IMG/VR virus record: IMGVR_UViG_3300035666_000075
Coordinates: 1 to 37,974 of that record
Length of the DNA: 37,974 bases
Source of the DNA: a virus
Reading direction: 5' to 3' (one strand)
The notes beneath the pieces are model-generated. The model saw only the letters and a program-made list of their open reading frames with translations, was not told the DNA's origin and did not search any database. A program made the translations under genes and the position numbers. Position 1 is the first letter of the stretch. Each line of letters begins with the position of its first letter. Positions 2,867 to 18,479 of this stretch are shown here, in pieces.

Positions 2867-3244
2867 ATGGAGGGCACTTCATTTTGGGGAACGACCAACA
2901 TTAAGGTTGCTTCTGCCGTTGCCACTCTTGGGGGCAAGCTTCGCAAATCTGACCCCGTAACACACATCGTAAAAGAGGACGGCACACGCCAAGTTACCTT
3001 TTGGTTCGAGTCTGGGGAGGGCGATGAGGCTAGGCGTGAGATGGAAGTTAAGTGGAGCGAAATGAAAAGCGATGAGGAATCTAAGGTTAGATATATTCGA
3101 GCCGCACTAGAGAATCGAGAAACGCTTCTAGGATTGGTTAAAAGGGCCGAGCCAATCCAAATCATACAAAGGGGCGGTCAGACATTGATCGTCCCCTTAA
3201 ACGCCAAACCAGAGCTAAAGAAGGCCATTCTGAGGGCAATCTAA
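2867..3244 (+). CDS. Hypothetical tail-module protein (125 aa)
   Basis: This ORF lies between the tube candidate and the tail assembly chaperone. The product is mixed alpha/beta, with an N-terminal GTTNIKVASAVATLGGKL segment, a central acidic stretch (ESGEGDEARREMEVKW) and a C-terminal basic part. No clear Shine-Dalgarno sequence precedes its ATG. Instead the bases AAATCC lie seven bases upstream, an element that recurs before several starts in this window. It could be a third chaperone-type component or a scaffold accessory. I do not recognise the family. Confidence 0.55.
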   Translation: MEGTSFWGTTNIKVASAVATLGGKLRKSDPVTHIVKEDGTRQVTFWFESGEGDEARREMEVKWSEMKSDEESKVRYIRAALENRETLLGLVKRAEPIQIIQRGGQTLIVPLNAKPELKKAILRAI

Positions 3245-3245
3245 T

Positions 3246-3626
3246 ATGAGCAACGAAATCCTAGACGAACTAAACGCATCCTTTGTGGCCGATGAAAGGC
3301 AATTCAAGGGGGAGCCGATTGCTCCATACACGGAAGGCTCAAGACTTCTTTTGTTGCAGATAAGGGATGATGGGGACTCCCCAATTTATTTTGTTTGGGC
3401 GTTCCTTTACTTGCACATCCTATTGAAGAAGAACAGGAAAGAGGCAATCAAACTTGCTTGGGACAAGGATGGATTTAGGGAAAGGATCATAGATTGGATA
3501 GGGGACAAGACCGAAGCTGACAGAGAAATGGCAACCTCCCTTGTCTCAAAAATCATCGAAGAATCAACAAGGGGACAAGTTGATGTGATCCCACAGCCGG
3601 GGGCTAGTCCAAGCCCAAACGCATAA
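3246..3626 (+). CDS. Tail assembly chaperone, short form (gpG-like)
   Basis: A 126-residue, mainly helical, acidic protein starts one base after the previous stop with GAGGG upstream of its ATG. It lies directly upstream of the tape-measure region, where lambda-like phages place the G/GT chaperone. Near its 3' end, in frame, is the heptamer CCCAAAC (3614-3620), a canonical X XXY YYZ slip site. The short form ends at the TAA at 3624-3626, and a -1 shift extends it (see 3608-3829). The helical core (FVWAFLYLHILLKKNRKEAI) is consistent with a chaperone but the family call rests mostly on position plus the frameshift signal. Confidence 0.7.
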   Translation: MSNEILDELNASFVADERQFKGEPIAPYTEGSRLLLLQIRDDGDSPIYFVWAFLYLHILLKKNRKEAIKLAWDKDGFRERIIDWIGDKTEADREMATSLVSKIIEESTRGQVDVIPQPGASPSPNA

Positions 3627-3829
3627 GGCCAGCGGGGACGGCCGCAGCGGTGTTCTTGCTGGCAGAAAAAACAGGATGGAGCTTGAACTATATCCTTTGG
3701 GAACTGCCCCTATCCATTGTGAACCAAGGTTTTCATGTCTTTCTTCACGATATGGGGGCAAAACTAAGAAGGGTTTCCAGCGCATCCGATTCTGATTTTA
3801 TTGAGATAGCCAAGAAGCTTAACATTTAG
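3608..3829 (+). CDS. -1 frameshift extension of tail chaperone (gpT-like)
   Basis: The frame minus one relative to the chaperone is open from 3608 to a TAG at 3827-3829 but has no good start of its own. Slipping at CCCAAAC would append 69 residues and give a fused product of about 194 residues. The appended part reads RIRPAGTAAAVFLLAEKTGW and then a SLNYILWELPLS segment, which is the pattern (small-residue run, then a Gly-Trp-x-Leu helix) expected of the T-part of phage G-T chaperones. Without the shift this stretch would be an unexplained gap in a very dense genome. Expression by frameshifting is inferred. Confidence 0.7.
   Translation, partial: SKPKRIRPAGTAAAVFLLAEKTGWSLNYILWELPLSIVNQGFHVFLHDMGAKLRRVSSASDSDFIEIAKKLNI
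3614..3663 (+). promoter_or_regulatory. -1 ribosomal frameshift signal: slip site plus stem-loop
   Basis: CCCAAAC (3614-3620) is in the required phase (C CCA AAC). Seven bases later GCCAGC (3628-3633) can pair with GCTGGC (3658-3663), and the loop may hold a smaller helix (GCCG 3641-3644 with CGGT 3648-3651). This spacing and layout match known -1 frameshift stimulators. Confidence 0.7.
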
Positions 3830-17320: not shown

Positions 17321-17626
17321 ATGCAATCCGACCCCATTGAGTCCGACCAGTTAAGAGCCGAGAGGCTTTTGATTGAGCTATGCCCAGATAATTCTGAGCT
17401 TCGCAAAATCACGAAGGCTGGACGCTCACAGGAGCGGATCAAAATGCTTCGGCAAGTCATTGAAAGGCTCTTGCTCAACGCCATCCCAACGGCGGTGATC
17501 GCAAAGGCTCTCAAGATGGAACAGCCCGTGATTCAATACCACGCCCGATGGCTGGAAAAGCAGGGCAAAATCATCAGGCCAAGCAAACACAGCCATTGGA
17601 TTTGGGCAAAGGGAACTGATGAATGA
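17321..17626 (+). CDS. Winged-helix/HTH protein (101 aa)
   Basis: The product is helical with an HTH near residues 45-75 (LLLNAIPTAVIAKALKMEQPVIQYHARWLEKQG) followed by a short wing (KIIRPSKHSHWIW). This resembles small phage regulators. It sits directly before the cytosine methyltransferase, and two later starts overlap its stop: one in the dcm frame (ATG 17619) and one in another frame (ATG 17623, ATGA). It may regulate the methyltransferase operon. Confidence 0.55.
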   Translation: MQSDPIESDQLRAERLLIELCPDNSELRKITKAGRSQERIKMLRQVIERLLLNAIPTAVIAKALKMEQPVIQYHARWLEKQGKIIRPSKHSHWIWAKGTDE

Positions 17627-18479
17627 GCAACCAACCCACCTCGACTTGTTCAGCGGTATCGGAGGATTTGCTCTTGCCGCTGGATGGGCTGGATTTGAAA
17701 CCGTTGGATTCTGCGACAACGAACCTTACGCCCAAGCCGTCCTCAAAAAGCATTGGCCTAATGTCCCAATCCACGGAGACATCAAAACGCTCGATGGCAC
17801 GGCATATCGAGGAGTCACTCTTCTGTCAGGAGGATTTCCCTGCCAGCCGTTCAGTAATGCCGGGAAGCGGAGAGGCAAGGACGATGACCGCTATCTCTGG
17901 CCGCAAATGCTCCGAGTCATACAGGAGGCAAGGCCAACTTGGATTGTTGGTGAGAATGTTGTTGGAATCATCGGCTTGGCACTCGAACAAGTGTGTTCTG
18001 ATTTGGAAGCGTCTGGATACGATGTCGAGCCGATCATTATTCCAGCTTGCGGTGTCGATGCCCCGCACAGAAGGGACAGGGTATGGATTGTGGCAAACAC
18101 CAAGCGTGGAAGATGCGGGGAGAACTGGGAGCAAAGAGGGATGGCTGAAATACAAAAACAACGGGCAAACAAGTCAGTGCAGACTTCGGAATATGGTGCA
18201 GATGTGGCCGACCCCCAAAGCCAACAAGGTTCATCCAATGATAACAGACAAGAACAGAGAGAAGCTAGCCGCCCGGAACAAAGCCAATTTAGAGGAAGTG
18301 ATTGCGGGGAATTGCAACGGAGCAACTGGACAACTGAACCCAGCGTGGGTCGAGTGGCTAATGGGATACCCTATGGGATGGACAGAATTAAAGGACTCGG
18401 AAATGCCATCGTCCCGCAAGTCGCCTACCAAATCATCAAAGGCATTAAAGAAGTGATGGAGCAAGCCAATGAGAACTGA
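17619..18479 (+). CDS. DNA (cytosine-5) methyltransferase
   Basis: This 286-residue protein has C5-methyltransferase motifs in order: I DLFSGIGGF (9-17), IV GGFPCQPFS with catalytic Cys75, VI GENV (111-114), VIII APHRRDRVWIVA (148-159) and X GLGNAIVPQVA (259-269). The target-recognition region (about 160-245) is short and unusually polar, rich in Q, E, R, S and N. It probably methylates cytosines in a short site and protects phage DNA from restriction; no cognate nuclease is nearby. Its coding region also holds a long ORF in the +1 frame (17623-18456). Confidence 0.92.
   Translation: MNEQPTHLDLFSGIGGFALAAGWAGFETVGFCDNEPYAQAVLKKHWPNVPIHGDIKTLDGTAYRGVTLLSGGFPCQPFSNAGKRRGKDDDRYLWPQMLRVIQEARPTWIVGENVVGIIGLALEQVCSDLEASGYDVEPIIIPACGVDAPHRRDRVWIVANTKRGRCGENWEQRGMAEIQKQRANKSVQTSEYGADVADPQSQQGSSNDNRQEQREASRPEQSQFRGSDCGELQRSNWTTEPSVGRVANGIPYGMDRIKGLGNAIVPQVAYQIIKGIKEVMEQANEN
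17623..18456 (+). CDS. Overprinted ORF in +1 frame of the methyltransferase (277 aa)
   Basis: This ORF lies almost wholly inside the methyltransferase gene in the next frame. Its ATG overlaps the previous stop by ATGA, the usual start arrangement in this genome, and sits four bases after the methyltransferase ATG. The product contains DFPASRSVMPGSGEAR, SGRKCSESYRRQG, a SLFQLAVSMPRTEG segment, MWPTPKA and GQLNPAWVEWLMGYPMGWTEL. From memory these match a conserved family of phage and bacterial proteins of unknown function (DFPAS...WVEWLMGFP..GWT). Conserved nucleotides under the methyltransferase could explain part of this, but not the protein-like second half. Possible function unknown. Confidence 0.55.
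   Translation: MSNQPTSTCSAVSEDLLLPLDGLDLKPLDSATTNLTPKPSSKSIGLMSQSTETSKRSMARHIEESLFCQEDFPASRSVMPGSGEARTMTAISGRKCSESYRRQGQLGLLVRMLLESSAWHSNKCVLIWKRLDTMSSRSLFQLAVSMPRTEGTGYGLWQTPSVEDAGRTGSKEGWLKYKNNGQTSQCRLRNMVQMWPTPKANKVHPMITDKNREKLAARNKANLEEVIAGNCNGATGQLNPAWVEWLMGYPMGWTELKDSEMPSSRKSPTKSSKALKK

Follow-up and report, generated by a model that had tools for sequence, protein, structure and literature searches.

A protein overprinted in the +1 frame of a phage C5-cytosine methyltransferase gene, probably the recognition subunit of a naturally split enzyme

The window, i.e. the whole stretch of 37,974 nucleotides of viral DNA analysed here, is a tailed-phage genome as judged by its neighbouring genes (terminase gpA, portal and a ParB-N6/N4-methyltransferase). 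All the features described below lie on its + strand. Positions 17619-18479 encode the frame of a C5-cytosine DNA methyltransferase, called alpha, 286 aa long and carrying motifs I-VIII and X, without motif IX. Within the same gene the +1 frame is open for 277 codons (17623-18456), as stated in an earlier note on this DNA, and encodes an overprinted protein of 277 aa, called beta, which is defined by its open frame and by the homologues, stop avoidance, shuffle controls and substitution counts reported below. The start region is shared (17608-17626): an SD-like AAAGGG (17608-17613) is followed by the ATG of alpha (17619), by the ATG of beta (17623), located 4 nt downstream, and by the TGA (17624-17626) of the preceding gene (17321-17626), with which the beta ATG forms the ATGA overlap described in the earlier note.

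Alpha matches PF00145 (5.9e-44, residues 8-223), TIGR00675 and phrog_363, and its alignment to M.HhaI and M.HaeIII is limited to residues 8-159, i.e. it runs through motif VIII. The C5-methyltransferase motifs I (LDLFSGIGGF, 17640-17669), IV (GFPCQPFSNAG, 17832-17864, with the PCQ of the catalytic Cys), VI (ENV), VIII (PHRRDRVWIVA, 18063-18095) and X (GLGNAIVPQ, 18393-18419) are all present. Alignment and motif inspection revealed that the recognition domain (TRD) and motif IX are absent from the alpha chain, and are located in the +1 frame instead. The segment of alpha between motifs VIII and X is a variable region (18096-18392); in two relatives an in-frame alpha stop falls within it, with beta open throughout (L033 at 642, L055 at 2841).

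The conserved N-terminal half of beta (17809-18069) lies over alpha motifs IV-VIII and reads EESLF..DFPASRS..SGRKC..SSAW..LIWK..SLFQLAVSMPRT, the DNA of motif IV being translated as QEDFPASRS. It is followed by a recognition region (18085-18333) composed of two WPTP-type modules, GLWQTPSVED (18085-18114) and QMWPTPKANK (18199-18228), and by a motif IX-like segment, LNPAWVEWLMGYPMGWTEL (18334-18390). Beta terminates in LNPxWVEWLMGYPxGWT, after one to four WPTPxASD modules, each some 40 residues long; we take this end to resemble motif IX of M.HhaI (LHPRECARVMGYPDSY). The DFPAS, SGRKC, WPTP and WVEWLMGYPMGWT elements were all found in the window's beta. The earlier note had taken them as marks of a conserved protein family of unknown function and had proposed a protein database search, in which the profile of phrog_1008 ('DNA methyltransferase') matched residues 43-203 with an E value of 8.1e-34, and no family of Pfam or NCBIfam was matched. 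Conservation of the family is borne out by this match and by homologues in the +1 register; the label of unknown function is not needed, the C-terminal half corresponding to a TRD and motif IX, as argued below. A profile search of the PDB with beta matched no solved structure. AlphaFold2 produced poor models, both of beta alone (pLDDT 60.7, pTM 0.24) and of a natural fusion, L017, the recognition half of which is below 50 pLDDT; no usable recognition domain was obtained from either.

Synonymous shuffling of alpha was used as the null model for the coding potential of the +1 frame, with 20 shuffles per gene in the case of similarity scores. In the beta-matched region of 82 relatives, 109 stops were observed in the +1 frame against 477 expected, and 34 of the 82 relatives contain none at all, against an expectation of 0.06. 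Such stops, which the earlier note had named as a sign against its proposal, are nearly missing also from 80 loci picked by the alpha protein alone: two are found in alpha codons 11-268, where about 420 are expected for codons 20-268 alone. The edges of the protected stretch are sharp, since in the same loci stop frequency is at or above expectation in alpha codons 1-10 and beyond codon 268. Compared with the window's beta, the beta translations of homologues score 87-392 bits, with a median of 152 bits against 50 for the best shuffle, and similarity at the protein level persists down to 35-40% identity. Taken together, these sequence comparisons indicate that the +1 frame is protein-coding, and not open by chance.

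Selection was evaluated on independent pairs of relatives, by classing each difference according to its effect in both frames and comparing the counts with all possible changes; one sequence per pair was used as reference and the transition weight was fixed at 2. Over motifs IV-VIII, N/S is about 0.16-0.19 for alpha and about 0.42-0.49 for beta, the beta constraint having p=5e-6 and 1e-13. In the variable region (alpha codons 161-244) it is about 0.21 for beta (p=2e-53) and about 1.0 for alpha (p=0.53), and over the first 60 codons beta is weakly constrained (N/S 0.67-0.80). Changes synonymous in beta are enriched and those nonsynonymous in beta depleted, in codon register. Both frames are constrained in the catalytic half, alpha more strongly; in the variable half beta is under purifying selection and alpha is neutral, and therefore, where alpha looks like filler, beta is the gene. 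Purifying selection specific to the +1 frame was thus found by the comparison of synonymous rates suggested in the earlier note, and supports its impression of a recognition region shaped by the second frame.

A dual start of the form RTGAATGA, which places the beta ATG four bases past the alpha start, was found in 39 of 46 distinct contexts within the window's clade, versus 2 of 69 elsewhere; conservation of the site makes 17623 the probable true start of beta in this clade. Among Bacillota and other relatives the start of beta is about 60 codons further on, and in the set of bacterial genomes the stop-protected stretch opens at about codon 62, from which the first 60 codons of beta are judged to be specific to the window's clade. 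An internal position for the true start of beta (M47 or M58) was also considered: it holds for the Bacillota-type relatives, and was rejected for the window's clade in view of the conserved dual start and of the exclusion of stops from about alpha codon 11 onwards. Many of the betas with an internal start begin near EQLTLFPED (L002, L003, L005, L008, L065), a sequence resembling the beta-sliding-clamp binding motif (QLxLF); the window's beta reads EESLFCQED instead.

A tblastn search of phage records with the window's beta returned 82 records, and in all the eight phage records that were opened the match was the +1 frame of a C5-methyltransferase. A pattern search of IMG/VR returned more than 600 matching stretches, nearly all of those examined encoding relatives. 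Collections were scanned by taking the best 80 loci each by similarity, a procedure by which a rare stand-alone beta might be missed: beta lies in the +1 frame of alpha in 80/80 IMG/VR pattern loci, in 80/80 loci of bacterial genomes found by the beta profile, and in 80/80 viral loci found by alpha alone. Similarly, a nested beta in the +1 register is present at 63 of 67 loci of SEN5-type P2-like enteric prophages, with about 4 stops against roughly 275 expected over alpha codons 41-300, and in 14/14 Royals2015-type mycobacteriophages, the edges being equally sharp in both of these distant subfamilies. Nested beta is apparently widespread and mostly unannotated in phages, and it seems to be present in hundreds of methyltransferase genes from phages and prophages. 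In the Paenibacillus phages Shelly and Lily the homologue is recorded as an internal gene within the methyltransferase; overall, the homologous +1 proteins of phrog_1008, Shelly and Lily are labelled as hypothetical protein, internal gene or just methyltransferase, with no subunit role. As to stand-alone copies, which the earlier note had proposed to look for, no fully stand-alone beta was found among the best matches, and the versions that do depart from nesting are either partly overlapping or fused in frame.

Some of these other architectures indicate which part of the enzyme beta corresponds to. In Mycobacterium phage Eagle, gp78 (alpha) terminates once motif VIII is complete, and the +1-frame gp77 goes on to supply WPTP modules followed by motifs IX and X, which are in frame with each other; the beta profile matches this TRD-IX-X subunit with an E value of 8e-16. 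In locus L276 a single ORF spans motifs I-VIII, the WPTP modules and the motif IX region (E 9e-10 with the beta profile). Modules of the same type as those of the window are found between motifs VIII and IX in both L276 and gp77. Gordonia phage SchottB and L282 have motifs IX and X in the catalytic frame. Because the order of elements in the Eagle gp77, L276, SchottB and L282 architectures agrees, and the beta profile finds all of them, beta is best read as a TRD followed by motif IX, with an overprinted N-terminal half; most likely it would supply the part of the enzyme that chooses the methylation site. A separate observation concerns relatives with near-identical catalytic halves (L021, L024, L025, L026; also L367 versus L368), which differ by the swapping, addition or deletion of recognition modules, a pattern expected if the TRDs are exchangeable.

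The locus is therefore proposed, with a probability of roughly 0.8, to encode a naturally split, nested two-subunit C5-cytosine methyltransferase of the M.EcoHK31I kind, formed by a catalytic alpha and a recognition beta. Dual coding, the pattern of selection, the assignment of motifs to frames and the homology of TRD plus motif IX, as given by architecture, are directly supported. Alpha would act as the catalytic subunit, with motifs I-VIII and X for SAM and target-base chemistry, and with a sequence-neutral linker in the place where single-chain enzymes carry the recognition domain. The N-terminal half of beta, overprinted on alpha motifs IV-VIII, would be the probable docking part on alpha, while the following modules, one to several in number, would read the DNA target site, ahead of motif IX. 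Both proteins may be translated from the dual ATGAATGA site, in coupling with the end of the gene before it, the single SD-like AAAGGG serving the two starts. The two chains would then assemble into one sequence-specific enzyme, which probably shields phage DNA from host restriction.

Split enzymes of this type have been seen before, the nested arrangement only once or twice. M.EcoHK31I and M.EaeI are naturally split C5-methyltransferases (YGGCCR). The small ORF of M.EcoHK31I, as reportedly described by Lee et al. in 1995, lies inside the large one in another frame, and the window's small ORF is likewise contained in the large one in an alternative frame. The window also shares with M.EcoHK31I the presence of motifs I-VIII and X on the large polypeptide and of motif IX on the small one (PMC3404938), a likeness in the division of motifs as described there. 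Unlike M.EcoHK31I, in which the TRD is predicted in the large (alpha) subunit (PMC3404938), the window has an alpha variable region that is neutral and recognition modules that are in beta; moreover its overlap is nearly complete, with a dual start, and its setting is that of a phage rather than of restriction-modification. In M.AquI the catalytic motifs and the TRD with motif IX are on two polypeptides, motifs IX and X being both in the small subunit and the TRD being divided (PMC3404938); this layout fits Eagle gp78/gp77, whereas in the window motif X stays in alpha. In the GenBank entry of Streptococcus phage MM1, a 'C5 methyltransferase beta subunit' is annotated inside the alpha subunit, nested in the +1 frame as in the window; unlike in the window, the C-terminus of the MM1 alpha is complete, including motifs IX and X, and the MM1 beta ends before any TRD or motif IX. 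In the multispecific C5-methyltransferases of SPbeta and phi3T, motifs VIII and IX are separated by several recognition modules in succession, within the catalytic frame of a single chain. The window's modules are similarly successive, but are located outside the catalytic frame. A literature search returned no description of a phage-wide nested TRD, nor of poly-G phase variation in these genes.

A different route to a complete enzyme would be frameshifting or transcriptional slippage, by which ribosomes leave alpha after motif VIII and continue into the +1 TRD and motif IX, to produce one chain instead of two subunits. Natural in-frame fusions of motifs I-VIII to TRD and IX do exist (L015, L016, L017, L247, L343), several of them at poly-G tracts; they lack motif X, however, and the longest run of G or C in the window's gene is 5, so that no slippery tract of that type is available. 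Moreover, beta residues 60-155, located upstream of the junction and not needed by a trans-frame product, are conserved, stop-free and under purifying selection, and beta has starts of its own, both as the annotated MESSQ.. starts of Paenibacillus phages and as the dual ATG. Slippage is consequently considered unlikely. It is more improbable still that beta is translated for a role unrelated to methylation, such as that of an inhibitor or anti-restriction factor: while its failure to match any Pfam or NCBIfam family would suit such a role, what alpha lacks, the TRD and motif IX, is carried by beta, and homologues of beta either run on into motif X or are joined to motifs I-VIII. The idea that the +1 ORF just reflects nucleotide conservation imposed by the methyltransferase, a doubt already voiced in the earlier note and in keeping with the good conservation of alpha in the window's clade, is refuted by the frame-specific substitution counts and by the shuffle controls, in which the beta score exceeds the best of 20 synonymous shuffles in 82/82 cases, the window included. 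Constraint by an RNA or DNA element instead of a second protein is very unlikely, given the codon-register pattern of substitutions and the extent of protein similarity, and no Rfam family was found in the window.

Besides being nested, the two-subunit arrangement may be switchable in several lineages. The window's gene, with no G or C run longer than 5, has no variable-length tract; such tracts, either poly-G (8-12) or AG, do occur in the dual-coded recognition region of gut relatives and of the relatives closest to the window. Counting duplicates, 31 tracts were found in 75 kb of recognition region versus 27 in 1,087 kb elsewhere, an enrichment of about 16-fold. Tract-bearing loci, in which the tract lies directly after motif VIII or within the recognition region, include L010-L017, L170-L176, L199-L201, L234, L244 and L247; several tract-bearing contigs end at the tract point. 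In the window's clade the tract, directly after motif VIII, is made up of 10, 11 or 12 G, its length setting the frame into which the catalytic half reads, and at several loci TRD and IX share the frame of the catalytic half. At the same site of SEN5-type prophages, within near-identical flanks (CAACCGACA-Gn-TAAACC), 7, 8, 9 or 11 G are found: with G8 or G11 both frames remain canonical, with G7 motifs I-VIII become fused to TRD and IX, and with G9 alpha terminates at once. Poly-G sites of enteric prophages were located at 2429 in L320, L324, L335, L343 and L348, at 2423 in L347, and at 1344 in L367 and L368; the IMG identifiers of many of the SEN5-type tract records suggest isolate genomes.

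Variation in tract length likely represents phase variation, homopolymer errors being possible in single records. We tentatively suggest, at somewhat less than even odds, that in several lineages of phages and prophages a slip of the tract shifts the two frames together. The catalytic half would then continue into its own linker and motif X, beta being intact (the two-subunit enzyme), into the TRD and motif IX (a fused form), or into an early stop (an inactive state), with corresponding changes in the tail of beta. If so, one mutation would re-wire two proteins and methylation specificity together, and the tract-length variants present in isolates would allow frame-switching to be tested.

Prokaryotes rarely have long genes overprinted on the same strand in which both frames have a known function, and a neutral alpha linker over a constrained beta TRD offers a clean system for studying dual coding. 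In practical terms, what appears to be the recognition region in the annotated protein resembles low-complexity filler because the recognition code would be in the other frame, and a prediction or assay of specificity based on the annotated protein alone would fail for these enzymes.

Two relatives show further peculiarities. In L074, an ORF resembling an HNH endonuclease (MKRCEFCGKEM..HHRDRNLLNNE..CQKCHKDD; about 3241-3700) is inserted in the +1 frame directly after beta, and the alpha frame reads through the insert to motif X. In L285 (1353-2160, E. coli PCP07014), a prophage cytosine methyltransferase is called a pseudogene by PGAP, owing to an internal stop; its +1 frame contains an intact TRD and LNPEWVEWLMGWP motif.
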